Assembly (NCBI GenBank): GCA_002747395.1
Contig: PDPE01000025.1
Location: forward strand, 1-64,000
Source: Pseudomonadota bacterium
Lineage (GTDB): Bacteria; Pseudomonadota; Gammaproteobacteria; Pseudomonadales; Oleiphilaceae
DNA: 64,000 nt
Direction of reading: 5' to 3'
Position numbers and translations under genes: made by a program. The notes beneath the pieces were generated by a model, which ran no database searches, had not been told where the DNA came from, and saw only the letters and a program-made list of their open reading frames with translations. Below, piece by piece: positions 511 through 16,754 of the stretch. The first letter of the stretch is position 1. The number at the start of each line of letters is the position of its first letter.

Positions 511-696
511 ATGCAAGCACATAGCGCTAAACAAGATGCCTTAAACGCCATACAGCAACTCCCTGATAATGTGGATTACGAAGAAATCATGTATCGACTC
601 TACGTTTTGGAGCAAGTACGAAAAGGCCGCGAAGATGTGGCTAATGGTCGGGTAATCAGTGCGGAAGATTTGAGGCAAGAAATTAAATCATGGTGA
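511..696 (+). CDS. Antitoxin of a ParDE/RelBE-type pair (predicted)
   Basis: A 61-residue acidic, mostly helical protein containing a YRLYVLEQVRKGREDVANG segment and ending near an ISAEDLRQEI motif. This layout is common in small antitoxins placed directly before ParE-type toxins. Its stop codon (694-696) overlaps the ATG of the toxin gene at 690, so the two are translationally coupled. By analogy it would bind and neutralise the toxin and repress the pair's promoter. No clear DNA-binding fold can be assigned by eye, so the family is inferred mainly from context. Confidence 0.65.
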   Translation: MQAHSAKQDALNAIQQLPDNVDYEEIMYRLYVLEQVRKGREDVANGRVISAEDLRQEIKSW

Positions 697-989: not shown

Positions 990-998
990 TCAATAAAA

Positions 999-1030
999 GC
1001 CCTGCCTGCTCTATACTGGCAGGGCCTTTA
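999..1030 (+). terminator. Rho-independent terminator after the toxin-antitoxin pair
   Basis: Perfect 8-bp stem GCCCTGCC (999-1006) / GGCAGGGC (1018-1025) with an 11-base loop, followed by a T-rich run from 1026. It starts ten bases after the toxin stop codon. Confidence 0.85.
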
Positions 1031-1160
1031 TTATAGGTCAGAATAAATTCAGTCTGGTTACTTTAGTTGATTTTTTCCTACTGAGTTTGAGTGAGGTGGT
1101 CTGATAGACCTGTGCAACCCGGTTAATAGATAATGATCTTGACTGTGCGCTTGCGACAAC

Positions 1161-1243
1161 TGTTCTGGTTTATGTAACAGACTGGTTTTACTGGCGATAA
1201 ATGGAAATCAAAGCCCTTTGAGTGTGTAAGCATTTGAAGGGCT
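1161..1243 (+). repeat. Left 83-bp direct repeat of the defence island
   Basis: Matches 13562-13644 over 83 bp without gaps: I count 6 substitutions, and the last 43 bases (1201-1243 and 13602-13644) are identical. The left copy lacks the T-run that follows the right copy. The pair fits attL/attR-like boundaries or a duplicated recombination target. The other bases between the terminator at 1030 and this repeat show nothing I can assign. Confidence 0.85.
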
Positions 1244-1328
1244 GAAACCGCGCAGATGCTCCGGCTTTTTGATAAAGAGATACCGCCATCCGGGGGCATT
1301 TAGTGGGCTTGGTTTGCAAGGATTAAAC

Positions 1329-1356
1329 TTGACAAAGCTTGACAGCGGCATATACT
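1329..1356 (+). promoter_or_regulatory. Sigma-70-type promoter for a leaderless mRNA
   Basis: Perfect -35 TTGACA (1329-1334), 16-bp spacer, -10 TATACT (1351-1356). The expected transcription start, about 7 bases past the -10, falls on the ATG at 1363, so the transcript would have no leader. A second TTGACA (1340-1345) is too close to the -10 to be used with it. Confidence 0.75.
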
Positions 1357-1362
1357 TCGCGC

Positions 1363-2508
1363 ATGCAGAAGAGACTGAATACTGATATAGCGCAACAGGC
1401 AATCGACAAGGCGGGGTTAACCCAAACTGCCGTCGCTGATGCTTTAGGCGTAAGCAGAGAAGCCGTTTCCCAGTGGCTCTCGCACAAGTCTTTTCCGCGT
1501 CCCAACAAGCTGCTTCAATTAGGCAAGTTGTTAAATCTCTCCTTTGATGATTTGGTCGTCAAGGAAGATCCGTATGCCCCGAAAGTCGCATTTCGCAAAA
1601 TGCGCGGCACCAAAACAAAGGATCACCATATCGAAAAAGCGCAGGAGATTGGCCGCTTTTTACGTCACCTCGTACCCTATCTGCCGTTTGATACCTTTGA
1701 AATGCCGCCGGTACTCAAGTCACCTGGCTGTGATTATGACTACCTGCGCAGGGTAACAGCGAAAGTCAGAGAAGACATTAATCTTGGCCCGGTAGAGTGT
1801 GTGGACTTCACGCACCTGATTCGCCGCTTCAGTGAACTACAGGCCGTTGTGGTACCTGTCATGTGGGGGGCAAAGCAGCGCCATGAAAATGCGGTGCATA
1901 TACACCTTCCCGACTCGGTCAGTACATGGGTTTACTTGAATCTGGACACTAATGTCCATGACTTCAAGTTCTGGATGGCGCATGAATTGGGACATTGCTT
2001 ATCGCCAAGCCTTGAAGGCAACGAAGCTGAAGACTTTGCGGATGCTTTTGCGGGTAGCTTGCTGTATCCGTATGAATTGGCCGAGAAAGCCTATGTTTCC
2101 ATCAATTCACAAGCCTCTTCTCCTGCCAAAATTGCCCATGTTATCGGTTTGGCTGATAAGTTAACCATCTCTCCTTGGACAGTCATTGGACAAGTGAATA
2201 AGTATGCTGAATTCACTGGGCAGCCTGAAATAAAACTGAGTCAGTCTGCTTTCCCTGGTGCAGTCACCAATTTCAATAAGAAGTACAAAAACCTCAGTGA
2301 GGCTTTGTATGGAGATACTGAACTCAACGAATATGGTCAGCCAAGCGCCCGTGACTATATTGAAAAAGCAGAAGCTTTATTTGAAACTCCTTTTTTCGAC
2401 TTGCTCAGACAATACCTAAAAGAGCACGATAAGGGGCCAGGATATGTTCAAACTGTGTTGGATATGCCACTACTTGATGCACGGAGTATCCACGCAGAGT
2501 TGACTTGA
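1363..2508 (+). CDS. XRE helix-turn-helix / ImmA-IrrE peptidase fusion
   Basis: A 381-residue protein counted from ATG 1363. Residues 8-65 form an XRE-type HTH (GLTQTAVADALGVSREAVSQWL). The C-terminal half is an ImmA/IrrE zinc peptidase with the metal motif HELGH at about 207-211 and acidic residues just after it (NEAEDFADAFA). Related proteins cleave a partner repressor or antitoxin, which couples a stress signal to gene release. TTG 1339 opens the same frame but lies between the two TTGACA boxes of the promoter, so ATG 1363 is preferred and the mRNA is likely leaderless. The next gene overlaps the stop by one base. Function as a regulator or antitoxin is inferred from domain and context. 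Confidence 0.8.
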   Translation: MQKRLNTDIAQQAIDKAGLTQTAVADALGVSREAVSQWLSHKSFPRPNKLLQLGKLLNLSFDDLVVKEDPYAPKVAFRKMRGTKTKDHHIEKAQEIGRFLRHLVPYLPFDTFEMPPVLKSPGCDYDYLRRVTAKVREDINLGPVECVDFTHLIRRFSELQAVVVPVMWGAKQRHENAVHIHLPDSVSTWVYLNLDTNVHDFKFWMAHELGHCLSPSLEGNEAEDFADAFAGSLLYPYELAEKAYVSINSQASSPAKIAHVIGLADKLTISPWTVIGQVNKYAEFTGQPEIKLSQSAFPGAVTNFNKKYKNLSEALYGDTELNEYGQPSARDYIEKAEALFETPFFDLLRQYLKEHDKGPGYVQTVLDMPLLDARSIHAELT

Positions 2509-3056
2509 TGCCGCAATCGAAAATCCTCATTGATACCAATGCCTACCTAAGGTTGGCTAAAACCATACGCCCTTTACTGTTCGTGCCCTTCGGTGATAAT
2601 GAATACTGCTTGTACATTCTACCCGAACTCAATGACGAGCTGGCAGGCAGGAAGCTCCAAAGTAAATTCCATTGGATTGATGAAGAGGAATTTACGGAGA
2701 ATCGTAAACACTTCCCCAATATTGGAAGAAAGCAGAAAAAGTCTATCGAGCAAACCTTTGGATACATCTGGGATCACGTGCAGACAGAACTGCCTGGTCC
2801 GTCCAGAGTGGATGCTTGGTATATTGCTTATGCACTAGAACTCGATGTTCCAGTAGTAACTGACGACCAGGATATGACCGAGTTAGCTAAAGCTTTCGAC
2901 GCGCAAATAATGCCAACATTAGAGCTACTCAAAACTATGCTGGACAGCGGCCATACAGATATGAAAACCATTGATGGCTTGGTTGACTATTGGAAATATT
3001 TTTCTGACATGCCCGCCAACTTCAAGGCTGATTATCAACGCCTGTTTGGTGATTAA
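2508..3056 (+). CDS. PIN-domain protein, DUF4411-like (probable toxin)
   Basis: A 182-residue protein that starts ILIDTN (acidic residue D9) and carries a later VDAWYIAYALELDVPVVTDD block. Spaced Asp residues of this kind form the metal site of PIN-fold ribonucleases. Its ATG overlaps the stop of the XRE/ImmA gene by one base, so the pair is co-translated. XRE-ImmA genes followed by a DUF4411 PIN gene are a recurring bacterial pair thought to act as toxin-antitoxin or stress modules. Nuclease activity and toxicity are predicted only. The C-terminal 50 residues show no motif I can name. Confidence 0.7.
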   Translation: MPQSKILIDTNAYLRLAKTIRPLLFVPFGDNEYCLYILPELNDELAGRKLQSKFHWIDEEEFTENRKHFPNIGRKQKKSIEQTFGYIWDHVQTELPGPSRVDAWYIAYALELDVPVVTDDQDMTELAKAFDAQIMPTLELLKTMLDSGHTDMKTIDGLVDYWKYFSDMPANFKADYQRLFGD

Positions 3057-3078
3057 TAAACCTGAAAGCCTCTCTTGC

Positions 3079-3106
3079 TTGACCTGCTTTCAAGCTTCTA
3101 TATATT
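3079..3106 (+). promoter_or_regulatory. Predicted promoter of the hsd defence operon
   Basis: -35 TTGACC (3079-3084), 16-bp spacer, -10 TATATT (3101-3106), placed 41 bases before the HTH gene that opens the operon. It lies directly after the PIN gene, with no obvious terminator between. Confidence 0.5.
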
Positions 3107-3147
3107 GACACTTTTGTACATTTTCGACACTGGCGAGATTTTTCGTC

Positions 3148-3357
3148 ATGAGTGACCCCATACTGACCATCAAAGATGTGGCTAAATACCTCAAGGTTAA
3201 CGAGCGGACCACTTACCGCTTGGCCACAAGCGGTAAGCTACCGGGCTTTAAAGTGGGTAACTCCTGGCGCTTTAAACAAAGCGAGCTGGAGCAATACATT
3301 GCCTCTCAGCACAACCGCTCCAATATTAGCGCACCGAATAAACCAGAAGAGAATTAG
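3148..3357 (+). CDS. Excisionase-like helix-turn-helix protein
   Basis: A 69-residue protein of the MerR-like/excisionase HTH_17 class. The sequence TIKDVAKYLKVNERTTYRLA gives the helix-turn-helix, and GKLPGFKVGNSWRFKQSELEQYI is the wing typical of the family. Such proteins act as excisionases in mobile elements or as small regulators beside restriction-modification genes. Here it sits 12 bases before hsdM and shares its promoter, so it may control expression of the modification genes or the behaviour of the island. Which of the two applies cannot be told from sequence. Confidence 0.75.
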   Translation: MSDPILTIKDVAKYLKVNERTTYRLATSGKLPGFKVGNSWRFKQSELEQYIASQHNRSNISAPNKPEEN

Positions 3358-3369
3358 GAATCCGCCCCC

Positions 3370-5511
3370 ATGGCACAACTGGAAAATATCGAAGCAATTG
3401 AAAAACGCCTGTGGCAATCGGCTGATACCCTGCGTGCCAACTCCGAGCTGGCGAGCAACGAATACTTTTTACCGGTAATGGGGCTGATCTTTCTGCGCCA
3501 CGCCTACAGTCGCTACCTCTCGGTAAAAGATGAGATTGTCGCCACCTTGCCCAGGCGCGGAGGTAAAACCCGCGAACCTACCAAAGAAGACTTCTCCAAA
3601 AAGAGCGCCATCTATTTGAAACCCGAAGCAGAGTTTGACTACCTGATCGTGCTCACCGATGCCGACAATCGAGCTGAAGCCATCGTTCATGCAATGGAGT
3701 CCATCGAGGCAGATTACACCAACCTGCGCAATCAGCTGCCAAAGCAGGAGTACAACAACATTCCCAACGACGTACTGGGTATGTTGCTGCGCACCCTGAA
3801 CCCGGAAGAATTAAAGAACGCGACGGGCGATATTTTTGGGCGTATTTACGAATACTTCCTCACCCGGTTCGCCGATCAGGGCGCGCATGATGGTGGTGAA
3901 TTTTTTACGCCTGTCTCATTAGTGCAGTTGATTGTGAATGTGCTGGAGCCAGATCACGGCAAAATTTTTGACCCCGCTTGTGGTTCTGGTGGCATGTTCG
4001 TACAAAGCGCCCATTTTATGGAACGCCACGCGCAAGACCCGCATGAACTCACATTTTACGGTCACGAGAAAAACCGGGTGACTACACGCCTGGCTAAAAT
4101 GAACCTGGCAGTACATGGTCTGGAAGGCAATGTAGAAGGTGGTGAGGCCGCCATTACCTACTATAACGACCCTCACCAAGGTCTGTTCGGCACCGTCGAT
4201 TATGTAATGGCTAACCCGCCCTTTAACGTAGACGAAGTGGACGCCGATAAAATCAAAGGGGATAAGCGACGCCTGCCGTTTGGTTTGCCGGGCGTGAATA
4301 AAAATAAAAAAGTCAGCAATGCCAATTATCTGTGGATTCAGTATTTCTACAGCTATTTGAACGACACAGGGCGGGCCGGTTTTGTTATGTCATCTCAGGC
4401 TTCCAGCGCCGGGCGGGATGAAGCCAGGGTGCGGGAGCAGTTAGTGAAAACCGGCCATGTAGACATCATGATCGATATTCGCGGTAACTTTTTCTATACC
4501 CGCACCGTGCCCTGCCAGCTTTGGTTTTTAAATAAAAACAAACCCGCACACCTGAAAGACAAAGTGCTGATGCTGGATGCCCGCAATGTCTACCGCAAAG
4601 TCACCCGTAAGATATATGACTTCAGTCCGGAGCAGCAGCGAAACCTCACCGCCGTGATCTGGCTGTACCGTGGCGAAGGCGAGCGGTTTGTTGCGCTGGT
4701 GCAGCAGTATATCGATAAGGCCATGTTTGCAGCGCGTGATTGTGAAAAATCTGACGCCTTGGCCTGCGAACCAGTACCGGACTTTATCGCTCAGCTGGAA
4801 AAATTCAGCCAGGCCGTTCAGCCCTTTATGAAGAAGCTGGAGCAAAACGGCACAAGTGTTGAGCCTTTTGTGGACTTCCTCAAAGCCAAAGGCTCGGTCG
4901 AGAATGGTTGGTCTGCCTTTCAAACCCTGACCTGCGACCTGCAAAAGAAGTGGAATAAATACGACTACAAGGACGCTGCCAGCCTGTTGGGCTTTATCGA
5001 CAACGATACTGGCTTAAAAGACCTGGCGGAACAAAGCCGCAACCTGATTAAAGAAATTGACCTGGCCTATAAGCTGGTAACCCGCGTGATTGACCTGGCC
5101 GAAGCCCATAACGCTAAAGACAGCGAACTGTGGGATAGCACGCTGCTCAATGGCCGTGGTCGTAGCAATTTAAAGAAAACCACCGATAAAGCCCGCAAGC
5201 TGGCGGTGGAGCAACTCAAACAGGTGCGTTACTTCTACAAACAAGCCCAGTGGTTATTAAGCCGCTTCCCGGAAGGCAAACTCTGCGATGTCGAAGGCCT
5301 GGTTAAACTGGTGGACATCGCAGACATTGAAACCGCCGACTGGAGCCTGACACCGGGCCGCTACGTGGGTGTGGCACCAGAAGAAGTGGATGAAGACTTC
5401 GATTTTGAAGAAGCCCTGCGGGATATTCATATTGAACTGCAAGGCTTAAATACCGAAGCTGCTGAGCTGGCTGCAAAAATTGCCCGTAATTTTGAGGAGT
5501 TGGGGGTATGA
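3370..5511 (+). CDS. hsdM: Type I restriction-modification, DNA methyltransferase subunit
   Basis: A 713-residue N6-adenine methyltransferase. An N-terminal HsdM_N region precedes the SAM-binding motif DPACGSGG (about 201-208) and the catalytic NPPF (282-285), with an EFFTP segment just before the SAM domain. With HsdS it methylates the recognition site; with HsdR added it forms the restriction enzyme. Most HsdM proteins are about 500-550 residues, so this one has a long C-terminal extension (roughly 440-713), rich in charged helices, of unknown role. The stop overlaps the hsdS start (ATGA at 5508-5511). The start at 3370 follows an AGGA at 3357-3360. Confidence 0.93.
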   Translation: MAQLENIEAIEKRLWQSADTLRANSELASNEYFLPVMGLIFLRHAYSRYLSVKDEIVATLPRRGGKTREPTKEDFSKKSAIYLKPEAEFDYLIVLTDADNRAEAIVHAMESIEADYTNLRNQLPKQEYNNIPNDVLGMLLRTLNPEELKNATGDIFGRIYEYFLTRFADQGAHDGGEFFTPVSLVQLIVNVLEPDHGKIFDPACGSGGMFVQSAHFMERHAQDPHELTFYGHEKNRVTTRLAKMNLAVHGLEGNVEGGEAAITYYNDPHQGLFGTVDYVMANPPFNVDEVDADKIKGDKRRLPFGLPGVNKNKKVSNANYLWIQYFYSYLNDTGRAGFVMSSQASSAGRDEARVREQLVKTGHVDIMIDIRGNFFYTRTVPCQLWFLNKNKPAHLKDKVLMLDARNVYRKVTRKIYDFSPEQQRNLTAVIWLYRGEGERFVALVQQYIDKAMFAARDCEKSDALACEPVPDFIAQLEKFSQAVQPFMKKLEQNGTSVEPFVDFLKAKGSVENGWSAFQTLTCDLQKKWNKYDYKDAASLLGFIDNDTGLKDLAEQSRNLIKEIDLAYKLVTRVIDLAEAHNAKDSELWDSTLLNGRGRSNLKKTTDKARKLAVEQLKQVRYFYKQAQWLLSRFPEGKLCDVEGLVKLVDIADIETADWSLTPGRYVGVAPEEVDEDFDFEEALRDIHIELQGLNTEAAELAAKIARNFEELGV

Positions 5512-6731
5512 AGCAGTACGACCTTGTAAAGTTGTCCGATTTCTGTGAAATCACATCCAGCAAGCGAATATACGCAAAAGAATATACGAACTCAGGGATA
5601 CCTTTTTATCGGGGAAAAGAAGTGGTTGCAAGTTTTTCTGGCGGCTCTATTAATGACCCATTATTTATTCCAGAAGATAGATTCGAGTCAATAAAATATA
5701 GATTTGGTGCTCCAGAAAAAGGTGACTTATTATTAACTTCTGTTGGAACAATAGGTGTTCCTTATAGAGTTTCCGGGGATTTTGATTTTTACTTCAAAGA
5801 TGGAAACTTGACTTGGTTTAGAAATCTTAATGGCGTAGACGCAAACTTCCTTTATTACTGGCTCCAGTCTCCACAGGGCAAGGCTCAATTATCGAAGTGT
5901 ACTATTGGTGCTGCTCAGCCCGCTTATACAATCGAAAGACTTAAAGAAATCCATATTAAGCTACCTCCGGAAGTGGCTCAAAAAGAAATAGCCTCTGTAA
6001 TAGCCACTTACGACAACTTAATCGAAAACAACCGCCGCCGTATTCAGTTGCTGGAAGAATCCGCCCGCTTGTTGTATCAGGAGTGGTTTGTTCACATGCG
6101 CTTTCCCGGCCATGAGCAAGTGAAAATTACCGATGGCGTGCCGGAGGGGTGGAATAAAACTACCGCAGATAGAATTATGGATGTTTTAAGTGGCGGCACT
6201 CCAAAAACAAAGGTTCCTGAGTTCTGGGGTGGTGAAATTCCTTTCTTTACACCTAAAGATGCCAAAGGTCTTTTTACGTACAATACTGAAAAGTCCATCA
6301 CTGAGCTGGGCTTGTCGAAATGTAATAGCCGCCTTTATCCAAAATATACAGTATTTATTACCGCCAGAGGCACCGTAGGTAAGCTCTCTTTTGCTCAGCG
6401 ATCAATGGCTATGAACCAGTCTTGTTATGCGTTAATTGCTAAAGAAGGAATATCGCAGGAGTTTTTATATAGTTCACTTAAAGCGTCAATAGAACAGTTT
6501 AAGGCGAGAGCTAGTGGAGCTGTTTTCGATGCTATTGTCGTTGATACGTTTAAAAACATTTCGTGCTTGATTCCTTCATCAAGTCTGATAGATGAATTTA
6601 CTGCACAAGCTAAAGACGTATTCAGTCAGATAGATAATTTGAGCATTCAAAATCAAAAGCTAACCCAAGCCCGCGACCTACTTCTACCCAAGCTAATGAG
6701 CGGCGAGCTAACCGTATCAATCAAGGAGTGA
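5508..6731 (+). CDS. hsdS: Type I restriction-modification, specificity subunit
   Basis: A 407-residue two-domain specificity subunit. The first target recognition domain (about 1-155) is followed by a conserved helical repeat with IENNRRRIQLLEESARLLYQ; the second (about 205-350) is followed by a similar repeat with QNQKLTQARDLLLPKLMSGE. Each recognition domain reads one half of the bipartite DNA site. Both are visibly richer in A and T than hsdM and hsdR, consistent with the frequent exchange of HsdS domains between strains. The recognition sequence cannot be deduced. The gene overlaps hsdM by four bases and ends three bases before the ATG of the helicase gene. Confidence 0.93.
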   Translation: MKQYDLVKLSDFCEITSSKRIYAKEYTNSGIPFYRGKEVVASFSGGSINDPLFIPEDRFESIKYRFGAPEKGDLLLTSVGTIGVPYRVSGDFDFYFKDGNLTWFRNLNGVDANFLYYWLQSPQGKAQLSKCTIGAAQPAYTIERLKEIHIKLPPEVAQKEIASVIATYDNLIENNRRRIQLLEESARLLYQEWFVHMRFPGHEQVKITDGVPEGWNKTTADRIMDVLSGGTPKTKVPEFWGGEIPFFTPKDAKGLFTYNTEKSITELGLSKCNSRLYPKYTVFITARGTVGKLSFAQRSMAMNQSCYALIAKEGISQEFLYSSLKASIEQFKARASGAVFDAIVVDTFKNISCLIPSSSLIDEFTAQAKDVFSQIDNLSIQNQKLTQARDLLLPKLMSGELTVSIKE

Positions 6732-6733
6732 TT

Positions 6734-8845
6734 ATGAACCCGAATACCGAAAAACAGCAAGCCCGGAAATTACTGCAAACCGCTTTAGCTAATCCCACCG
6801 CCGAATTCCGCGATGGCCAATGGGAAGCTATCGATGCCCTGGTGAATCATCGGCAAAAATTATTAGTGGTGCAGCGTACCGGTTGGGGCAAAAGTTCGGT
6901 GTACTTTATCAGCACCAAAATCTTTCGTGATCGTGGTATGGGACCGACCATTATTGTCTCCCCCTTGCTGGCATTGATGCGCAACCAGATTGAATCGGCC
7001 CAGCGCCTGGGCATTGTCGCCGAGACCATGAACTCAACCAATACCGCAGATTGGCCGGCGGTGACCCAGCGCATTCTTAACAATCAAATCGACTGCTTGC
7101 TGATTTCCCCTGAGCGCCTGGCTAACGACAGTTTTATTGAAACGGTATTACAGCCGATTGCTGACTGCATCGCCCTGATGGTGATTGATGAGGCCCACTG
7201 TATTTCGGACTGGGGCCACGACTTTCGCCCCGATTATCGCCGTATTGTAAATATTCTGCGCCAGTTACCAGCCAACACGCCGGTACTGGGGACGACCGCC
7301 ACAGCCAATAACCGCGTAGTTGCGGACATACAAACCCTGCTGGGTGATATTCAAATTCACCGAGGCCCGCTTATCCGTGAAAGCCTCGCGCTGCAAACCA
7401 TGGTACTGCCCGATCAGGCATCCCGTTTGGCCTGGTTAGCGCAGGTGATACCCACGTTACCGGGTACGGGCATCGTTTACACCCTAACAGTGCGCGACGC
7501 CGAACAGGTCGCTGAGTGGTTAAGTTCCAACGGTATAGACGCCAGGGCTTACCACGGTAGTGTTGAAGCCGGTGGTTTTGAAAACAGTAACGCTTATCGC
7601 CAGTATCTGGAAGAGTTACTACTTAACAACCAGTTAAAGGTGTTGGTGGCCACCACCGCCCTGGGGATGGGCTACGACAAACCGGATTTAAGCTTTGTGA
7701 TTCACTATCAAGCGCCGGGCTCTATCGTTGCATATTACCAACAGGTGGGGCGCGCCGGGCGTGGCATTGATCATGCCGTGGGTGTGTTGATGTCGGGGAT
7801 GGAAGATGAAGAGATTCACGAATTTTTCCGTAACTCGGCCTTCCCTTCAGAGGCGCAGGTCAATGAGATTTTGCAAGCATTGGAAAACAGCGATGGTTTG
7901 TCGGTTCGTGGCATTGAAGAGCAAACCAATCTGCGTCACGGCCAGATTGAAAAAGTGCTGAAGCTGCTGAGCGTGGAAAGCCAGGCTCCCGTTATAAAAG
8001 ACGGCAGCAGTTGGGTTAGAACGCCAGTGCGCTACCAAATGGATCATGCCCGAATCGCGCACTTAACCGGGCAGCGTGTGCAGGAATGGCAGGAGGTTCA
8101 AGCGTATCTGGGTGATGCTGGTTGCAAGATGACATTTTTACAGCGGGCGCTGGACGATCCCGATCCCACGCCTTGCGGTAAATGCGCTTCGTGCCTGGGT
8201 CGGCCGGTTATCAATGTGTCGGTTGATTCTGCTTTGGCCCATCGTGCGGGTACTTTCCTAAAGCACGCGGAAATGGTGATTACCCCAAAAGCACAGGTGG
8301 CAGCCAATGCTTTTCTGGAATACGGCTTTCGCGGCAATCTACCCCAGCAACTTCGCGCACAGGAAGGCCGCGTTTTATCCCGTTGGGGCGATGCCGGTTG
8401 GGGGCGCACGGTTGCCGATAACAAACATGCAGGGGAGTTTAGTGATGACCTGATTGAGGCTATGGCTGAAATGATTCAGCAGCGTTGGCAGCCCAATCCT
8501 GCACCTCAGTGGGTTTGTTGCGTGCCTTCTCGTAATCATCCGGAGTTAGTACCGGGTTTTTCCCGTAGGCTGGCTGTTCGGTTGGGATTGCCTTTTGTCG
8601 ATGCGATAAGAAAAGTTAAAGATAACCAGCCGCAAAAAAGCCAGCAGAATCGCTTCCACCAGTGCCGCAACCTTGATGGAGCGTTTGAGGTGACTCAGCT
8701 TTGCCAAGGGGAACCGGTTCTGTTAGTGGATGATATTGTAGACTCCGGCTGGACGCTGACGGTTATCGCAGCACTTTTGCAACAAGCAGGCAGCGGTGTG
8801 GTTTATCCCGTCGCGCTGGCTTCATCTTCGGTGAAAGGCTCATGA
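6734..8845 (+). CDS. RecQ-family helicase fused to a phosphoribosyltransferase domain
   Basis: A 703-residue protein counted from ATG 6734, which has AAGGAG at 6723-6727 at good spacing; a GTG at 6728 would abut that site. Residue numbers here count from that GTG. The N-terminal half is a superfamily-2 RecQ-type helicase: Walker A TGWGKS (51-56), DEAH (154-157), TTATA (189-193), and a QQVGRAGRG motif VI. A zinc-type CGKCASC (483-489) follows. The last 130 residues carry a PRTase/ComF-like PRPP loop, VLLVDDIVDSGWTL (664-677). It sits between hsdS and hsdR and overlaps the DprA-like gene by ATGA. PRTase plus DprA is the ShosTA layout, and helicase, PRTase and DprA recall ComFA/ComFC/DprA. An anti-phage or DNA-uptake-sensing role is inferred. 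Confidence 0.85.
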   Translation: MNPNTEKQQARKLLQTALANPTAEFRDGQWEAIDALVNHRQKLLVVQRTGWGKSSVYFISTKIFRDRGMGPTIIVSPLLALMRNQIESAQRLGIVAETMNSTNTADWPAVTQRILNNQIDCLLISPERLANDSFIETVLQPIADCIALMVIDEAHCISDWGHDFRPDYRRIVNILRQLPANTPVLGTTATANNRVVADIQTLLGDIQIHRGPLIRESLALQTMVLPDQASRLAWLAQVIPTLPGTGIVYTLTVRDAEQVAEWLSSNGIDARAYHGSVEAGGFENSNAYRQYLEELLLNNQLKVLVATTALGMGYDKPDLSFVIHYQAPGSIVAYYQQVGRAGRGIDHAVGVLMSGMEDEEIHEFFRNSAFPSEAQVNEILQALENSDGLSVRGIEEQTNLRHGQIEKVLKLLSVESQAPVIKDGSSWVRTPVRYQMDHARIAHLTGQRVQEWQEVQAYLGDAGCKMTFLQRALDDPDPTPCGKCASCLGRPVINVSVDSALAHRAGTFLKHAEMVITPKAQVAANAFLEYGFRGNLPQQLRAQEGRVLSRWGDAGWGRTVADNKHAGEFSDDLIEAMAEMIQQRWQPNPAPQWVCCVPSRNHPELVPGFSRRLAVRLGLPFVDAIRKVKDNQPQKSQQNRFHQCRNLDGAFEVTQLCQGEPVLLVDDIVDSGWTLTVIAALLQQAGSGVVYPVALASSSVKGS

Positions 8846-10206
8846 ATATATCTCGCTTGTCATCAGTTGATGGCGCTTTATCCTCCACGGCGCAAGCGAC
8901 CTTGCTGCTGACCAGCTATTTTTCAAAAGCCAGTAGTGAAACCGCAAAGCCGCTAGGCAATGCGGAATGGGGCCGTTTTGCTTTATGGTTAAAAGACAAG
9001 TCCATTACACCTGCCGACCTGCTGGTTACCGATCCGAAGGCCCTGCTGCAAGGCTGGCATGATGCACGTATCAGTGCAGATCGAATTATCGCGTTGCTGA
9101 ACCGGGGCCATAGCCTCGCACTGGCTATGGAAAAGTGGCAAAGGGCGGGTCTCTGGGTAGTCACCCGTTCCGATCCGGAATATCCGAAGCGTTTAAAACA
9201 GCGCTTGAAAACAGATTCGCCACCGGTGTTGTTTGGCTGTGGTAATAAAGCTTTGTTAGATGTCAGAAGCCTGGCGGTTATCGGTTCACGCAATGCCAGT
9301 AAGTCTGATCTTGCCTTTACCGATCAAGTGGGTGCGAAAGCAGCAGCAGAGGGCATTGCTATTGTCTCCGGTGGTGCGCGCGGCGTGGATGAGGTGGCGA
9401 TGCTGGGTGCCATCAAGCAAGGCGGTGTTGTAATCGGTGTGGTGGCCGATAGTTTGCTAAAAGCAGCAACCAGCAGCAAATGGCGCAAAGGCCTGATGGA
9501 TGACCATGCTGTGTTGATATCGCCCTTCTACCCAGAGGCAGGGTTCAGTGTAGGTAATGCCATGGCCCGCAATAAATACATTTATTGTCTGGCAGACAGT
9601 TCTTTAGTGATTCACTCTGGTAAAAAAGGTGGCACGCTCAACGGTGCAGAAGAAAACTTGAAAAAATCCTGGGTGCCGCTGTGGGTTAAACAGACGACGG
9701 ACCAAGACGCTGCCAATGCCAATTTGGTTGCCAAAGGCGGCCGTTGGCTGAATGCGGATATTCAGGCTTTTACTATTTCGGATTTAATGGGTAATGAAGC
9801 TGGCTGTGCGAACCAGGTAAATGAGCCAATGGGTGATCTCTTTTCCTCGACTGCGCAGCCTGAGTTGTTTGCAGAGTCTGAACCGAGACCAGAATCTGAA
9901 CCTGAAAAAAACGTTACCGCAGCAAAAACCGATAATACAATTATCGAGGTGCAAACAGAGGTTGAGGCCTGTCCAGAGCAGCTTGCCGAAGGTGAGGCTA
10001 TCCCATCGGGCCCTATCGATTTCTATCAACTGTTCACTTACGAGCTTCAACGCCTCGCCAATGAGCCGGTTACTGTCGATGAGATGACTGAACTCACTAA
10101 ACTTCATAAGTCTCAGTTAACTGCATGGTTGAAACGTGCTGTCAATGATGAGGTAGTGAAGAAGCTCAATCGCCCTGTACGTTATCAACTTAAGCAAAAG
10201 GAATAG
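8842..10206 (+). CDS. DprA/Smf-like protein (ShosA-like) with winged-helix tail
   Basis: A 454-residue protein. The N-terminal part resembles the DprA helical region; residues 140-290 are a Rossmann-like DprA domain with VIGSRNAS (146-153), VSGGARGVDE (175-184) and a KKGGTLNGAEE segment. The canonical RNRIIAG stretch of competence DprA is replaced by NAMARNKYI, so it is a divergent branch. A Glu/Pro-rich linker (about 345-385) leads to a C-terminal winged helix of DprA_WH type. True DprA loads RecA on incoming single strands; ShosA, also DprA-like, is the antitoxin of a PRTase toxin. The four-base overlap with the helicase-PRTase gene suggests a functional pair. Whether it is antitoxin or effector is unknown. 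Confidence 0.85.
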   Translation: MNISRLSSVDGALSSTAQATLLLTSYFSKASSETAKPLGNAEWGRFALWLKDKSITPADLLVTDPKALLQGWHDARISADRIIALLNRGHSLALAMEKWQRAGLWVVTRSDPEYPKRLKQRLKTDSPPVLFGCGNKALLDVRSLAVIGSRNASKSDLAFTDQVGAKAAAEGIAIVSGGARGVDEVAMLGAIKQGGVVIGVVADSLLKAATSSKWRKGLMDDHAVLISPFYPEAGFSVGNAMARNKYIYCLADSSLVIHSGKKGGTLNGAEENLKKSWVPLWVKQTTDQDAANANLVAKGGRWLNADIQAFTISDLMGNEAGCANQVNEPMGDLFSSTAQPELFAESEPRPESEPEKNVTAAKTDNTIIEVQTEVEACPEQLAEGEAIPSGPIDFYQLFTYELQRLANEPVTVDEMTELTKLHKSQLTAWLKRAVNDEVVKKLNRPVRYQLKQKE

Positions 10207-10218
10207 AAGGATTGACTC

Positions 10219-13200
10219 ATGGCCATGAATGAAGAAACCCTGGTTCAGGAAGTTACCGCTGACTACTTGCTGAATCAATTGCAGTGGGATGAATCTGTTC
10301 TGGGCATGCATGAAAAGCTTGGCAAAGAGGGTGATTTAGGGCGAATTTCAGAGCAAGAAGCTGTATTAACGCGCTATTTGGGCGAGAAACTGATTGAGCT
10401 AAACCCAGGCCTGCCTGATATCGCCTACCAGGAGGCATTGCGCGTGGTCTGTGAGATGCCAGTGTCTACCAGTATTGTGGCCGTGAATAAGGAGAAATAC
10501 CATCTCCACAAAAATGGCGTTGAAGTGAGTTTTCATAACGAGAAAGGCGAGCGAGTAAAGAAACGACTTCGCCTGTTTGATTTCGACAATTACGAAAACA
10601 ACCACTTCCTACTGGTCAGAGAGTTTTGGATCAAGGGCGATATTTATCGTCGCAGAGCGGATCTTGTCGGCTTTGTAAACGGCATTCCATTACTCTTTAT
10701 GGAAGTGAAAAATGTCCATAAAAACATCCGAGCCGCCTATGACAAAAACCTGGCAGATTATAAAGACACGGTGCCCCACCTGCTTTACCACAATGCCTTT
10801 ATTATTCTGGGCAATGGCATTGACGCCAAAATTGGTTCGGTTTCCAGCAAGTTCGAGCATTTCAATGACTGGAAACGCTTGAAAGAGAGTGAGCCAGGCG
10901 CGGTGGAGATGGAAACCTTGCTGAAGGGGACTTGCTCCAAAGCCAACCTGATGGACATCTTTGAAAACTTCACCCTGTTTGACCAGAGTTCCGGTCGTTT
11001 GGTAAAAATCGTTGCCCGGAATCACCAGTATCTAGGTGTCAGTCGCGCTATTGGTGCCGTTGTTAATCGAGGCGAGCGTTTGGGTAAATTAGGCGTTTTC
11101 TGGCACACCCAGGGCTCGGGCAAGTCGTATTCGATTGTATTTTTTGCCCAGATGGTGCATCGAAAACTGGGTGGTAATTATACCTTTGTGGTGTTAACGG
11201 ATCGCGAGGATTTGGACACGCAAATTTATAAAACTTTTGCCGGTTGCGACCTGGTCGATAACGATAAAGACCCGTGCCGAGCGGATAGCGGGAAAGACCT
11301 GAAGGCACTGATCAGACAGCAAAAAGCCTTTGTGTTCACCCTCATTCAAAAATTTAACGAAAAGATCGACCCTGAGAAACCGTATTCCGAGCGTGACGAC
11401 ATTATCGTTATCACCGACGAAGCTCACCGCACACAATATGGCACCTTGTCATTAAACATGCGCAATGCCTTGCCCAATGCCAGCTTTATCGGTTTTACCG
11501 GGACGCCATTATTTAAAAATGACGAGATTACCAAAAAGGTTTTTGGTGATTATATTTCTACCTATGACTTCCAACGGGCGGTTGAGGATAAGGCGACCGT
11601 GCCATTGTACTACGATGCCCGTGGCGAAGAGTTGGTGTTTACCGATGACGATGGCAATGAGCATACGGTTGCTGATCCTAAGGGCATTAATGAGCGCATT
11701 GCGGAAAAGCTGGATGAATTGGAAATTGAGGATGTGGACGTTCAGCAAAGATTGGAGCGAGAACTAAAGCGCGATTATCACATCATCACCGCAACCAGCC
11801 GACTGGATCAGATAGCCCGTGACTTTGTTGCCCATTATGCTAATGCCTGGGAAACCGGCAAGGCGATGTTTGTATGTATCGATAAGATCGCTTGTGTGCG
11901 GATGCACAAGTTGATCGACTTTTACTGGCGGCAAGCGATTAAAACTAAAGAAAAGGCACTCGCGGCGGCTACCGATGAGCAGGATCTGGCCTGGCGAGAG
12001 CGGCAATTGATGTGGATGAAAGAAACGCTGATGGCGGTTGTAGTCAGTGAAGAACAAGGTGAAGTTGCCAAATTTGAAAAATGGGGGCTGGATATCAAAC
12101 CTCACCGCAAGCTGCTTAAAGCCGGGTTTGAGCTGGCTGATGGTTCTCGTCTGGATATGGAGGAAGCGTTTAAGTCCAGCGAGCACCCCTTCAGAGTGGC
12201 TGTTGTTTGTGCTATGTGGTTAACCGGGTTTGATGTGCCAACACTTTCTACCCTCTATTTAGACAAGCCGTTGAAGGCACATACCTTAATGCAAGCCATC
12301 GCCAGGGCAAACCGCGTAGCGGAAGGCAAGAACAACGGCTTGATAGTGGATTACTGCGGGATACTAAAAAACCTGCGTAAAGCCCTGGCGACATTCGCCG
12401 GTGCTGGCGACGAGGGCCATGGCGGAGGTGAGGGCGAAAATGAACCCACCAGGCCTAATGAGGAGTTGCTGGAAAGCCTGAGTGAGTCGATCAGCGTTGT
12501 TGCAGAGTTTTTACGAAAGCATGATTTTGAACTAAGCCGGATTATTACAGAAACTGGCTTTGACCGGAATGCAGTGATTGCTCAGGCCAAGGAAATTATT
12601 AATCAAAATGATGAAACACGAAAACGTTTTGAGGTAATGGCCCGAGAGGTGTTCAGCAAGTTTAAAGCCTGTATTAACGTGCCGGGTGTGAATGGTTATC
12701 GTGATTTACGTGATGCCATAAATGTGCTTTATAAAAGTTTGCAGGCAGACAGAGAAAAAGCCGACATCTCCGACATCATGAAAGCACTCCATGGAATTGT
12801 TGATAGCAGTATCGACACCAAAAGACAAGTTAAAGAGCCAAAGCCGGATGGTGATCGAATCTACGATATCAGCAAAATCGATTTTGAGCGACTCCGCCAG
12901 GAGTTTTCCAGATCAGAGCGAAAGAATACAACGGTGCAATCGCTGAAAGCTGTGGTTGAGAAGAAACTGGCTCGGCTCATGATGCAGAACCCGTTACGTA
13001 CTGATTATCAAGAGCACTACGAAAAACTGGTTAGGGAGTATAACCAGGAAAAGGATCGCGTTGTTATTGAAAAAATCTTTGAGGAACTGTTAAGACTGAA
13101 TGAAGAACTTTCCCATGAAGAGAAGCGTGCAATCAGGGAAGGCCTTGATGAGGAGTCTTTGGTGTTGTTTGATCTCCTTAATAAACCAAATTTGCAACCA

Positions 13201-13461
13201 AAGGAAATTTCCAGGATCAAACAAGTCGCTACTACTTTGCTGGCAACGCTAAAGGCAGAGCGGCTTAAGGTTGCCAATTGGCAACAGAAGGAATCGACGC
13301 GCGACGCGGTCAAGCAACAGATATTTGATTTTCTCTACGATGAAAGAACGGGGTTACCCGTTGAGCAATACCAAGAGGATGAGATTTCAGACATCACTGA
13401 AAAGGTGTTTCTTCATATACATCGGGCCTACCCTGAACTGCCATCGCCCATCTATGGATGA
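10219..13461 (+). CDS. hsdR: Type I restriction enzyme, endonuclease/translocase subunit
   Basis: A 1080-residue HsdR of normal length. The N-terminal PD-(D/E)xK nuclease has RADLV (D148) and MEVK (E162, K164). The motor shows Walker A HTQGSGKS (296-303), Walker B region ITDEAHRTQ, and motif VI MQAIARANR. The C-terminal helical region docks to HsdM. It translocates DNA from an unmethylated site and cuts at a distance. It starts 12 bases after the DprA-like gene (ATG 10219; a second in-frame ATG is at 10225). Thus hsdM-hsdS and hsdR are split by the helicase-PRTase and DprA-like genes within one unit. Confidence 0.95.
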   Translation: MAMNEETLVQEVTADYLLNQLQWDESVLGMHEKLGKEGDLGRISEQEAVLTRYLGEKLIELNPGLPDIAYQEALRVVCEMPVSTSIVAVNKEKYHLHKNGVEVSFHNEKGERVKKRLRLFDFDNYENNHFLLVREFWIKGDIYRRRADLVGFVNGIPLLFMEVKNVHKNIRAAYDKNLADYKDTVPHLLYHNAFIILGNGIDAKIGSVSSKFEHFNDWKRLKESEPGAVEMETLLKGTCSKANLMDIFENFTLFDQSSGRLVKIVARNHQYLGVSRAIGAVVNRGERLGKLGVFWHTQGSGKSYSIVFFAQMVHRKLGGNYTFVVLTDREDLDTQIYKTFAGCDLVDNDKDPCRADSGKDLKALIRQQKAFVFTLIQKFNEKIDPEKPYSERDDIIVITDEAHRTQYGTLSLNMRNALPNASFIGFTGTPLFKNDEITKKVFGDYISTYDFQRAVEDKATVPLYYDARGEELVFTDDDGNEHTVADPKGINERIAEKLDELEIEDVDVQQRLERELKRDYHIITATSRLDQIARDFVAHYANAWETGKAMFVCIDKIACVRMHKLIDFYWRQAIKTKEKALAAATDEQDLAWRERQLMWMKETLMAVVVSEEQGEVAKFEKWGLDIKPHRKLLKAGFELADGSRLDMEEAFKSSEHPFRVAVVCAMWLTGFDVPTLSTLYLDKPLKAHTLMQAIARANRVAEGKNNGLIVDYCGILKNLRKALATFAGAGDEGHGGGEGENEPTRPNEELLESLSESISVVAEFLRKHDFELSRIITETGFDRNAVIAQAKEIINQNDETRKRFEVMAREVFSKFKACINVPGVNGYRDLRDAINVLYKSLQADREKADISDIMKALHGIVDSSIDTKRQVKEPKPDGDRIYDISKIDFERLRQEFSRSERKNTTVQSLKAVVEKKLARLMMQNPLRTDYQEHYEKLVREYNQEKDRVVIEKIFEELLRLNEELSHEEKRAIREGLDEESLVLFDLLNKPNLQPKEISRIKQVATTLLATLKAERLKVANWQQKESTRDAVKQQIFDFLYDERTGLPVEQYQEDEISDITEKVFLHIHRAYPELPSPIYG

Positions 13462-13561: not shown

Positions 13562-13644
13562 TGCTCTGGTTTACGTAACAGATTGGTTTTACCGGCGATG
13601 GATGGAAATCAAAGCCCTTTGAGTGTGTAAGCATTTGAAGGGCT
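13562..13644 (+). repeat. Right 83-bp direct repeat of the defence island
   Basis: Partner of 1161-1243 (6 substitutions in 83 bp; the final 43 bp identical). It contains the 8-bp palindrome TTACGTAA (TTATGTAA in the left copy) near its start. Here the repeat runs directly into a T-run, which makes its 3' part a working terminator. The left copy lacks the T-run, so this side looks like the ancestral flank. Confidence 0.85.
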
Positions 13645-13649
13645 TTTTT
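13611..13649 (+). terminator. Terminator formed by the end of the right repeat
   Basis: AAAGCCCTT (13611-13619) pairs with AAGGGCTTT (13638-13646) and runs into TTTTTT. It would insulate the defence island from the pilus operon that follows. Confidence 0.7.
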
Positions 13650-13921: not shown

Positions 13922-14872
13922 TTGGGGTGGCGTGTTCTGATTAACTGGTTTGGCAAGCGTAAAAGTTCATCTTTTGTGGGAGTCGAGATTCGCACGGATG
14001 GCATCTCTTTGGCGAAAACCTGTGCGTCCGGGGATGGTAGGCGTTCGCTTGAATTTCATGGTTTTGAGCCCTGCAATGCGGCTGACAGGGAAAATGCGCT
14101 GACAAAACTGGTCGAAGCCTCCCGCTCTTCAGGGGCTTCCTGTAATCTGGTGCTGACCAACAATCAGTATCAGGTGTTTCAGATTGAACGGCCCGCAGTG
14201 GATGACGCCGAGTTGCGCGACTCCCTGCACTGGAAATTGAATGATTTGATCGATTACCCGCTTGATGATGCCGTATCTGATCTGTTTGAGTTTCCGGAAG
14301 ATGCATCACGAGGCCGAAAGCTGATTAACGCGGTTTGTGCGCGTAAGAGTATTCTCAAGGAATATGTAGCCTTATTGAAAAAGTGTCACCTGGATTTGGT
14401 CTCGATTGACATTATCGACCTGGCGCTGAGAAATATCGCCAGGACTTTTATCGGGACAGGTATTGAGACAGAAGGTGCGGTCGGGTTTCTCTATTTGAGA
14501 AACGGTTTTGGCATGATGATACTGGTAAAGGGCGAGAATCTGTATCTGTCGCGCAAGATCGACGTGGATGTGGATGCGTTGAAAGACCCTTCCCGACAGG
14601 AGACAGTGATGCAGAAGTTGTCTCTTGAGGTTCAGCGATCACTGGATTACGTTGAAAGCCAGTTGCGGCAGATCCCCCCCCGACAACTTTTACTTCTGGG
14701 CCCGGATATTTCGTTTCCTTTGCCTCAGTTGCTTGACCCCTTACTGGCTGTCAGTGTTGAAGATGCCAATTTTGACGGGCTTTTGCCCGAGCAGGATTCG
14801 GCGAACCTGACGACCCTGGTGCAGACCCTGGTTGCTGTCGGTGGTGCCTGTCGGCGGAGTGAGGCGGTGTAA
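13922..14872 (+). CDS. mshI: MSHA pilus biogenesis protein MshI (PilM-like)
   Basis: A 316-residue cytoplasmic protein of the actin-like PilM/GspL class. It has an SFVGVEIRTDGISLAK opening, a central DDAELRDSLHWKL segment, and a later GFLYLRNGFGMMIL strand region. In type IV pili this protein binds the N-terminus of a PilN-type partner and links the cytoplasmic motor to the inner-membrane platform. It heads the pilus operon and its stop overlaps the next ATG by one base. The best start is TTG 13922, with no upstream ATG in frame and no obvious ribosome site, so the true start is uncertain. In Vibrio, mshH precedes mshI; here the defence island's boundary lies there instead. Confidence 0.8.
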   Translation: MGWRVLINWFGKRKSSSFVGVEIRTDGISLAKTCASGDGRRSLEFHGFEPCNAADRENALTKLVEASRSSGASCNLVLTNNQYQVFQIERPAVDDAELRDSLHWKLNDLIDYPLDDAVSDLFEFPEDASRGRKLINAVCARKSILKEYVALLKKCHLDLVSIDIIDLALRNIARTFIGTGIETEGAVGFLYLRNGFGMMILVKGENLYLSRKIDVDVDALKDPSRQETVMQKLSLEVQRSLDYVESQLRQIPPRQLLLLGPDISFPLPQLLDPLLAVSVEDANFDGLLPEQDSANLTTLVQTLVAVGGACRRSEAV

Positions 14873-15516
14873 TGCAGCAGATCAACCTTTACACGGATGA
14901 ACTCAGGCCCAGGAAAACGCCTTTGTCCTTGTTGCACATGGTTACTGCCCTGGTTCTGGTGATCCTGGTTCTGGTCGGGGTAACCATTGTTACCTATCGG
15001 GAACATCAATCTGTGACTGTTGAGTTGGCGAAAAAGCGGGAAGCGGCCGGTCACCTGGAACAAGGTGTTGAATCGTTGAGAGAGCGTACTGCCGGTATCG
15101 TCCGGAATGACGCTTTGGCGGCAGCAAATGATCGACTCCAAAAGCAGCTTGAAAATCGTGAACGCTTTGTTGATTCACTGGGGGCGAAGCTGGAAAGTGG
15201 AAGCCATGGATTTTCCAGTCTGCTGGTGGGTTTGGCCAGGCAAAAACGGGATCATCTCTGGCTAACCCGGGTGCACGTGAGTGAAGGCGGTGGCAGTTTC
15301 GGGCTGGAAGGCGTCGCTTCTTCGCCGGAGCTGGTTCCGCAGTATATTCAGGCGCTGCGTGCAGAGCCTGCTTTTTCCGGGAGGAGTTTCGACCTGTTTG
15401 AAATGAACCAGTCAGAAACGTCGCATTTACTGGATTTTTCATTGACATCCGGGAAACCCGAATCGGCAGAAAGTGAATCCAACCCGACCCGTCGGGGATG
15501 GTCGCGGTCGAAGTAA
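14872..15516 (+). CDS. PilN-like MSHA biogenesis protein (second mshI product)
   Basis: A 214-residue bitopic membrane protein. The start MQQINLYTDELRPR is the classic PilN cytoplasmic peptide (INLxP/E-type) that docks onto PilM. A transmembrane helix lies at about 22-44, then a coiled coil (about 45-110) and a periplasmic domain. With MshI and MshJ it forms the inner-membrane alignment complex of the pilus. Some Gammaproteobacteria carry this as a separate gene after mshI. It starts at the base where mshI ends. The last 25 residues are Ser/Glu/Arg-rich and probably disordered. Confidence 0.8.
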   Translation: MQQINLYTDELRPRKTPLSLLHMVTALVLVILVLVGVTIVTYREHQSVTVELAKKREAAGHLEQGVESLRERTAGIVRNDALAAANDRLQKQLENRERFVDSLGAKLESGSHGFSSLLVGLARQKRDHLWLTRVHVSEGGGSFGLEGVASSPELVPQYIQALRAEPAFSGRSFDLFEMNQSETSHLLDFSLTSGKPESAESESNPTRRGWSRSK

Positions 15517-15597
15517 CCAGTGACTGACCTGGCAGATACCGGTGACAAGGGTGATGACAGACGGCAAGGGGTGTGAAACAGGGGTGAGCAATACACT

Positions 15598-16335
15598 ATG
15601 AAGGCTTACTGCGAAAGAATATCGGCTTTTCTTGAAAGGTTGACGCTGCGGGAGCGTGGAATGCTGCTGTTGACAGTGATAGTGGTGATTGTCTTTCTCT
15701 GGTTCCAGTTCGTCTTTAGCCCGCTGGACGAAAAAGTCAAGGCCGGTAAGGCGGCGATTTCTGCGTTGAATGGCGAGATGGGTGCCTTTGGAACTGAAAT
15801 GACTCTTCTGGAAGAGCGCTTGAAGGTTGACCCGAACCAGAGTTTGAGAGATGAACATGCCAGATTGAAGCTCGCCCTGAAAGTTCAGCGCGATGAACTT
15901 GAATCGAAACTGAGTGCGCTGATTGCCCCCGAGCGGATGGCTGATGTGCTGCGTGATGTACTGGCCGGGTTTTCAGGCCTGACTTTGCGCAGTGCCAGGA
16001 ATTATCAGGTTCGCCCGTTTTCTGTCAGGGACGGGCAGGCACAAGAGAAGCAGGCACAAGAGGGGAGGGCAAAAGGCAAATATCCTCCAGAAGAAAAAAA
16101 CGGGAGCAAGGATTCAGCTGTTGAAAAAGGGGAATTGCCGATTTATCAACACAGCTTTGAACTCTCCCTTGTTGGTAATTTTTTTGACCTGTTGCGATAC
16201 CTGAAAAGGCTTGAAGGGCTGGATGAGGATTTTCAGTGGTATTTGCTGGATATTCGGGTCAACGACTATCCTCAAATGGAAGTGCGGGTGGTGGTCAGAA
16301 CATTAAGCCTTGAGCAGGAGTGGATTGGTGTGTAG
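15598..16335 (+). CDS. mshJ: MSHA pilus biogenesis protein MshJ (PilO/GspM-like)
   Basis: A 245-residue protein with a short cytoplasmic part containing RLTLRERGMLL, one transmembrane helix at about 22-40, and a periplasmic coiled coil, as in the PilO/GspM family that pairs with PilN. A Gln/Lys-rich insertion at about 144-180 includes a 15-bp tandem duplication (16036-16065) encoding QAQEK/QAQEG. It follows the PilN-like gene after 81 bases, with AGGGGTGA upstream as ribosome site, and overlaps mshK. Confidence 0.8.
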   Translation: MKAYCERISAFLERLTLRERGMLLLTVIVVIVFLWFQFVFSPLDEKVKAGKAAISALNGEMGAFGTEMTLLEERLKVDPNQSLRDEHARLKLALKVQRDELESKLSALIAPERMADVLRDVLAGFSGLTLRSARNYQVRPFSVRDGQAQEKQAQEGRAKGKYPPEEKNGSKDSAVEKGELPIYQHSFELSLVGNFFDLLRYLKRLEGLDEDFQWYLLDIRVNDYPQMEVRVVVRTLSLEQEWIGV

Positions 16336-16710: not shown

Positions 16711-16754
16711 TCGATCATGTTCAAGAACAGGGTAATCAGAGGTCTTTGCTGCCA

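Follow-up and report, generated by a model that had tools for sequence, protein, structure and literature searches.

PsyrTA of Pseudomonas syringae (Sberro et al. 2013, as cited in PMC8790059 and PMC4670107) and RqlH/RqlI of E. coli (Russell and Mulvey 2015, PMC4670107) belong to a published toxin-antitoxin family. The gene of a RecQ-phosphoribosyltransferase (PRTase) toxin lies ahead of an overlapping gene for a DprA-like antitoxin. Toxicity of RqlH requires the PRTase: the exchange D663A abolishes the effects on growth, SOS response and filamentation, with a modest loss of viable count remaining, and helicase mutants are described with raised SOS response and filamentation (PMC4670107). RqlI binds RqlH and counteracts its toxicity (PMC4670107). 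Here, a pair of this build was examined in a Pseudomonadota bacterium of the Oleiphilaceae (GCA_002747395.1, contig PDPE01000025.1, positions 1 to 64,000; this whole stretch of 64,000 nucleotides is called the window). It is located between hsdS and hsdR of a type I restriction-modification operon (Table 1). We regard it as probable that the pair serves this portable operon as a back-up abortive-infection and addiction module. From the known PsyrTA/RqlHI the window pair differs in being embedded in an hsd operon and recurring with it. The words 'restriction' and 'hsd' are absent from the text of PMC4670107, and the one ordinary E. coli rqlHI locus opened stands alone, flanked by gntU and yhgN.

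ShosTA likewise combines a PRTase toxin with a DprA-like antitoxin (PMC9122126, PMC12593503) and is reported to protect against T7 and lambda (PMC9122126). According to a review citing Pu et al. 2025, it comprises a PRTase/pyrophosphatase disturbing purine pools and a DNA-binding antitoxin, with T7 Gp0.7 as trigger (PMC12593503). In contrast, the window toxin joins its PRTase to a RecQ helicase that bears a Cys motif. DarTG2 is a known case of toxin and antitoxin genes placed between hsdS and hsdR; it is described, with RptR, for a probably horizontally acquired island of seven open reading frames (ORFs); its authors named the hsdS-hsdR site a potential recombination hotspot (PMC12255303). The window has another toxin and antitoxin, and a helix-turn-helix (HTH)-PIN-like pair stands ahead of hsdM. 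For EcoprrI/PrrC a host-killing effector gene inside a type I operon was reported as well (PMC3874165, PMC12707154). PrrC, a tRNA nuclease, is kept in check by the restriction complex itself, whereas PsyrT is paired with a separate antitoxin and is retained where hsd is gone.

Thus PsyrTA itself is already known, and so is the placing of toxin and antitoxin genes in the hsdS-hsdR gap. The recurrent PsyrTA-in-hsd unit, its mixed vehicles, PsyrTA outliving hsd and the breadth of the gap cargo are added here. A published PsyrTA inside hsd was not met in the literature searched; its absence from print is unproven, bioRxiv preprints being outside this search (e.g. Payne et al. 2024 on embedded defences, cited in PMC12255303).

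Identity of the gene pair

By sequence, both genes are full-length members of the PsyrTA (RqlH/RqlI) family. The PADLOC model of PsyrT scored 1045 bits and spanned residues 7-703, that of PsyrA 567 bits over nearly the full length. For PsyrT, Pfam DEAD, Helicase_C and Pribosyltran were all above their cut-offs, and so was DNA_processg_A for PsyrA. The psyrT frame (6728-8845) is open from GTG 6728 and gives 705 amino acids (aa); all PsyrT residue numbers, including the 664-677 given in the original prediction, are counted from this codon. ATG 6734 is the likelier start, with AGGAG just upstream at the end of hsdS. The psyrA frame is open, codes for 454 aa and shares ATGA with the end of psyrT. 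In PsyrT, Walker A (TGWGKS, 51-56), DEAH (154-157), motif VI (339-346), the Cys motif (466/483/486/489) and the phosphoribosyl pyrophosphate (PRPP) loop VLLVDDIVDSGWTL (664-677) were found. The mutated RqlH residues K49, D148 and D663 probably correspond to K55, D154 and D669, by a constant offset of 6 read from the motifs, not from an alignment.

The original prediction of a RecQ-type helicase-PRTase fusion, followed by an overlapping DprA-like gene with winged-helix tail and placed between hsdS and hsdR, was thus borne out. Its idea of a new composite of ShosTA and ComF was not, as PADLOC names the pair PsyrTA/RqlHI with near full-length matches. Membership in ShosTA itself was also rejected: the toxin bears a RecQ core, and the ShosA models scored 99 and 41 bits versus 567 bits for PsyrA.

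The AlphaFold2 models of PsyrT and PsyrA had a predicted local distance difference test score of 88.4 and 83.6, respectively, with residues 1-9 and 320-389 of PsyrA below 50. In fold searches PsyrT matched the RecQ catalytic core (4tmu, E 2e-28). The best match of PsyrA was ShosA (8zva, E 7.5e-16), and DprA (3uqz) was matched as well. Residues 394-450 of PsyrA are modelled in the order helix-helix-helix-strand-strand, like a winged helix. Hence, the proposed structural comparison was positive for the RecQ core and for ShosA/DprA, but the PRTase part was masked: the lists of searches including it were filled by RecQ matches of the adjoining helicase, and the PRTase call is sequence-based. A missing PRTase fold had been named as an argument against the prediction; the domain was recovered by Pfam and by a profile of the PRTase part alone. 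This profile matched PRPP synthetases (best E 6.8e-4) and PRTases (5esx, E 0.005) in their PRPP-binding stretch alone; the matches are weak but on target.

A genome scan with PsyrT gave 280 relatives, and the best 80 of these are referred to as the 80 loci. Together with the window and one E. coli copy, 82 sequences were aligned. In 82/82 PsyrT sequences Walker A was unchanged, as were D, E and H within DEAH; the four cysteines were invariant in all 81 rows ungapped there, and D668, D669, D672, S673, W675 and T676 of the PRPP loop in 78/78 ungapped rows; the G of this loop is variable. In PsyrA the DprA Rossmann glycines were retained with some substitutions.

Homologues being housekeeping recQ or comF genes had been named as a second argument against the prediction. 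Separate relatives of RecQ (C43, a 600-aa frame, 37% identical), DprA (C23, 29% identical) and ComF (C51) were detected in the genome, and these are the likelier housekeeping copies. Because of them PsyrTA can be regarded as an addition to the genome. The RecQ equivalog score of PsyrT was 267 bits versus a cut-off of 640, and a housekeeping RecQ was rejected. ComF/DprA uptake genes were rejected as well: C51 is the better comF representative (98 bits versus 29 for PsyrT, both under the cut-off of 234), and PsyrA reached 103 of 191 bits for the dprA equivalog.

Distribution of the unit, its vehicles, remnants and gap cargo

The search across genomes, as suggested before, gave psyrA directly 3' of psyrT in 76/80 loci. 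In the other four the contig ends at the PsyrT match (L038, L057, L072) or psyrT is split (L051). The order HTH-ImmA-like, PIN-like, hsdM, hsdS, psyrT, psyrA, hsdR was found in 12/80 loci of diverse gammaproteobacteria, with genera named as Pseudomaricurvus, Kluyvera, Alteromonas, Vibrio, Halomonas, Providencia, Neptuniibacter, Chelonobacter and Neiella; a part of it was present at a contig end in L039. Nine of these 12 cassettes contain a small HTH gene (L009, L010, L011, L015, L016, L033, L034, L043, L044). In L023, L032 and L060 the PIN-like and hsdM genes are too close together to fit one. In L032 hsdR is interrupted, its frame having 582 aa. The gaps are short in the 12 cassettes, with 7-18 bp between hsdS and psyrT and 6-18 bp between psyrA and hsdR. 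Among 14 cassettes (the 12 loci, the window and E. coli) mean pairwise identity was 90% for HsdR, 88% for HsdM, 82% for PsyrT, 72% for PsyrA and 40% for HsdS. By these identities, the specificity subunit gets exchanged while the toxin pair stays put.

For E. coli, 12,108 bases of strain 2/0 with all eight genes were used as query (coverage at least 80%, identity at least 99%). The unit was present in 53/5426 genomes (54 records), and one more genome has its first 13% only. A separate DNA search with hsdR likewise gave 53/5426 genomes; the two sets were not matched name by name. Isolate 68 possesses two copies, one chromosomal and one on a plasmid. The psyrT of L044, near-identical in L043 and L089, is mosaic-like. 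Its identity to the window, per 30 residues, is 70-100% up to residue 270, 43% in 271-300, 83-87% in 301-360, 37-53% in 361-540 and 80-93% after 541; the hsdM and hsdR beside it are 91-94% identical to those of the window.

The vehicles are mixed. Ahead of the E. coli unit lie genes for two tyrosine recombinases, a third protein, whose integrase match stayed below threshold, and a short protein. All six insertions opened lie directly after an ssb gene, one of them being a stub: chromosomal ssb1 in four cases, a plasmid ssb in one and an ssb pseudogene in one. Whether the ssb copy is chromosomal, plasmid-borne or on an island, the element is placed at the codons that specify the C-terminal tip of SSB (L175, L176, L178-L181). 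Between chromosomal and plasmid copies identity starts at the last ssb codons, and CCGTTCT is repeated at the right end. GInt islands are described with three integrases and a short protein at one end and with site-specific insertion, e.g. at ssb (PMC5385486). Arrangement and site of the E. coli copies fit this type, a likeness of layout and insertion site. All or part of such a trio was seen in E. coli, L043, L044, L011 and L151. One figure legend in PMC10121019 names both PsyrTA and GInt. A Tn7-like set of TnsC, TnsD/TniQ and TnsE (49-4620) lies directly 5' of the cassette in L033, TnsD/TniQ with look-alike neighbours in L015 and L060. A single phage-type integrase was found in L010 and L032, and the cassette of L016 is placed after a glmS-like gene. 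Within the stretches examined no vehicle was recognised for L009, L023 and L034. No GInt-type genes are visible in the window, at whose position 1 the contig begins. A phage-borne origin was rejected: scans of IMG/VR with HsdR and PsyrT, sensitive to close relatives only, gave no phage-borne copy, and 0/25 matching INPHARED records cover 80% of PsyrT. Among the INPHARED matches listed, the alignments stop at residue 489 or earlier, before the PRTase.

In 12 other loci of the 80 (L012, L013, L014, L017, L018, L020, L021, L026, L027, L029, L030, L041) whole psyrT and psyrA frames stand next to scars or remnants of an hsd operon. The scars are hsdS ends, hsdR starts or a piece of hsdM or of the small HTH gene. 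They occur on both flanks in L013 and L014. In L017 no scar adjoins psyrT; what is left there is the HTH gene, the PIN-like gene and the small HTH gene, all upstream. L013 is located after an ssb gene, as is the E. coli element (uvrA and ssb were named by eye). The remnants and this position are the reasons why the scars were read as loss. The number of loci exceeds that of events, as close relatives are included (three Photorhabdus, two Psychrobacter). Since the pair is whole where only scars are left, PsyrTA does not necessarily rely on the restriction enzyme. In L022, L050 and L056 type I genes from a different family are close by, directly adjoining psyrTA in L022 and L056, and an HsdR of 65% lies directly downstream in L067. 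For the remaining 51/80 loci neither hsd gene nor scar was detected with the window hsd genes and related cassettes as queries, many contigs being short.

The hsdS-hsdR gap was also surveyed by HsdR, so that selection on PsyrT was avoided; the search covered 194 genomes at the level of the order and 369 at that of the class, the own genome being in both. All 23 other genomes of the class at E <=1e-150 were opened, together with the next nine top-ranking places from the order search, giving 32 regions. In 27 of them hsdS was visible; it was not seen in L149, L152, L161, L166 and L174. The gap was occupied in 17 of the 27, empty in seven (L146, L148, L154, L159, L160, L167, L168) and unclear in three (L165, L169, L172, about 0.3-1.3 kb without a convincing ORF). 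Some of the operons look broken, e.g. L147 and L148. PsyrTA was the cargo in 2/17 (L143, L151; tblastn), and 13/17 gave other toxin-, nuclease- or defence-type matches by Pfam or PADLOC: ABC-3C/DUF2326 with RhuM-Fic and AAA/DUF4143 (L144), OLD/Gabija-like with ImmA-DUF4411 (L147) or with PIN and RhuM-Fic (L150), HicB (L153), SoFic (L155), Schlafen (L156), ImmA-type (L157), YhcG nuclease (L158), KwaB (L162), GmrSD (L164), HTH-Fic (L170), GmrSD with OLD-like and UvrD helicase (L171) and AbiE (L173). L145 contains a RhuM-like fragment, named by eye, and the one ORF scanned in L163 matched no family. The gap of L171 (1198-9931) comprises five genes, namely GmrSD, an OLD-like ATPase, a UvrD helicase, one unscanned gene and an NYN/LOTUS protein. 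The survey suggests that the hsdS-hsdR gap is an efficient place to look for abortive-infection modules.

Possible roles of the pair in the operon

For the probable role as back-up abortive-infection and addiction module, the following course is conceivable. As in the published RqlHI and ShosTA, the PRTase would disturb nucleotide or DNA metabolism and cause DNA damage, while the DprA-like protein, aided by the helicase domain, would restrain it. This restraint, already assumed in the original prediction, is published for RqlH/RqlI (PMC4670107). PsyrA may bind single-stranded DNA or sense a phage-altered replication state and release PsyrT. The cell would then die or stall once restriction fails to clear the phage. 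In uninfected cells PsyrTA would also punish loss of the element.

Several points weigh against this. PsyrTA of one E. coli strain is reported to give no detectable phage protection, and its expression gave a growth defect (PMC12409345). Loss of rqlHI is described as having no measurable fitness cost in vitro or in mice (PMC4670107). When the three E. coli-type copies are left out, the pairwise identities follow HsdM, with Spearman values of 0.81 (PsyrA) and 0.79 (PsyrT), but these were computed on non-independent pairs, and with the three included the value is only 0.26 for PsyrT-HsdM and 0.10 for PsyrT-HsdR. These cassettes (L089, L043, L044) carry a divergent psyrT allele next to near-standard neighbours; HsdM, HsdR and the main part of PsyrA remain close to those of the window. 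The HsdR-anchored support for PsyrTA being fixed in this hsd lineage is thin, with 2/2 genomes and a near-clonal E. coli set: L143 and L151 belong to the genomes with an HsdR 93% identical to that of the window, and the next best has 69%. The scars of L012 and L041 are weak (57-80 bases, E about 1e-6). Furthermore, a quick PsyrT tree, with 18 open forks and the fragments L038, L051, L057 and L062 left out, is unable to separate gain from loss. Scar and intact copies are interleaved on it; the cassette label needs a minimum of 10 changes and the scar label 7, and starred branches require 6 and 5 of these, respectively.

Pure addiction, with PsyrTA only stabilising the restriction operon or mobile element and no role in infection, is rather unlikely. 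The toxin-antitoxin behaviour published for RqlHI (PMC4670107), the visible vehicles, which are all mobile elements, and the missing protection in E. coli (PMC12409345) would agree with it. However, PsyrTA does not stabilise restriction-modification only, because the pairs persist in 12/80 loci where the hsd genes are gone; the other cargo of the gap is often abortive-infection-like, and the related ShosTA blocks phages (PMC9122126).

A further, speculative reading, for which we see a small chance, takes the hsdS-hsdR gap as a standing cargo bay for swapped abortive-infection modules. PsyrTA would be a restriction-coupled fuse in it, whose RecQ helicase reads the ends or single strands left by HsdR, or stalled restriction, and arms the PRTase. 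If true, a single transcript carries first-line cutting and second-line suicide.

It is improbable that the toxin is a guard in the manner of PrrC/EcoprrI, controlled by the type I complex or firing on HsdR-made ends or single strands, or on an anti-restriction block. The single operon with its short conserved gaps, the partial co-divergence, the RecQ helicase core of PsyrT, the psyrTA of L022 and L056 beside other type I genes and the precedent of PrrC (PMC12707154, PMC3874165) are consistent with such coupling. The original prediction, too, had the helicase unwind DNA broken by HsdR. But PsyrTA is whole without hsd in 12/80 loci, a further 51/80 gave neither hsd gene nor scar with the queries named above, which speaks against an obligatory coupling, the ordinary E. 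coli rqlHI opened stands alone, PsyrT has an antitoxin of its own, unlike PrrC, and 7/27 related hsd operons have an empty gap. The scars argue that hsd is unneeded to restrain PsyrT; restriction may still supply the trigger. The recurring unit and its natural copies without the enzyme offer matched pairs for asking whether restriction feeds this trigger.

A function in DNA uptake or repair, with a helicase-ComF-DprA machine acting on incoming single strands, is very unlikely; the original prediction had considered such strands as a substrate of the helicase. The PRTase part is weakly similar to comF and GntX, and this and the modelled DprA fold of PsyrA speak for it, but the genome has the separate recQ-, dprA- and comF-related loci, the dprA and recQ equivalog scores are far below cut-off, the models of PsyrT and PsyrA are matched over almost their whole length and the distribution is mobile and patchy.

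Other features of the operon and the window

From the small HTH gene to hsdR, all six genes are on the forward strand and overlap or lie at most 12 bases apart from their neighbours. The co-oriented hsdM, hsdS and hsdR each show the expected domains of a type I restriction-modification operon.

Table 1 Features of the operon in the window
Feature	Position	Strand	Basis
HTH (XRE-type) and ImmA/IrrE-like protein	1339..2508	+	Pfam HTH_3 above cut-off
PIN-like partner of the HTH gene	2505..3056	+	overlaps the preceding ORF; named by eye from the sequence
Sigma-70-like promoter ahead of the small HTH gene	3079..3106	+	consensus only, 10/12 matches
Small excisionase-like HTH protein, 69 aa, possible operon regulator	3148..3357	+	E. 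coli copy HTH_17 above cut-off
HsdM, type I methyltransferase subunit	3370..5511	+	Pfam N6_Mtase, HsdM_N; PADLOC MTase_I 891 bits
HsdS, specificity subunit	5508..6731	+	Pfam Methylase_S, 2 stretches
PsyrT/RqlH, RecQ helicase core, Cys motif and C-terminal PRTase	6734..8845	+	PADLOC, structure, motif residues
PsyrA/RqlI, DprA-like antitoxin with winged-helix-like tail	8842..10206	+	PADLOC, Pfam DNA_processg_A, model nearest ShosA and DprA
HsdR, type I restriction motor/nuclease subunit	10219..13461	+	Pfam HSDR_N, SWI2_SNF2, T1RH-like_C
Intrinsic-terminator-like hairpin 3' of hsdR	13611..13646	+	16 pairs, T tail

A putative second toxin-antitoxin-like pair, HTH-ImmA-like and PIN-like (1339-3056), heads the operon. 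For the first protein Peptidase_M78 remained below the cut-off (17.5 of 22) and PADLOC gave a weak RmrA match; the alignment with its E. coli homologue begins at ATG 1363. The PIN-like gene accompanies the HTH gene in 12/12 cassettes. Neither Pfam, PADLOC nor NCBIfam gave a match to its product, and no meaningful one came from the PDB. A clear ImmA-DUF4411 pair is the gap cargo of L147, and similar pairs, judged partly by likeness, were seen in the cargo of L157 and beside psyrT in L067. The small HTH protein matched 6ama in the PDB (E 0.004).

A second promoter-like match lies at 1329-1356; overall the promoter scan gave 11 sites versus a shuffle mean of 15.2, i.e. no more than by chance. The terminator scan gave 21 sites versus a shuffle mean of 14.7. 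The hexamer TAGCTA was absent from 3057-3147, between the PIN-like and small HTH genes, and occurred 4 times in 64 kb versus 5.1 by chance, other site variants and the RptR sequence not being searched. Control of the window operon by RptR is unlikely.

Short transposase-like frames at the contig start (15-508, by eye) and a ParE-like toxin gene (690-989, Pfam ParE_toxin) precede the operon. After the cassette, a gene cluster resembling MSHA-type pilus biogenesis was recognised by eye at 13922-20695.

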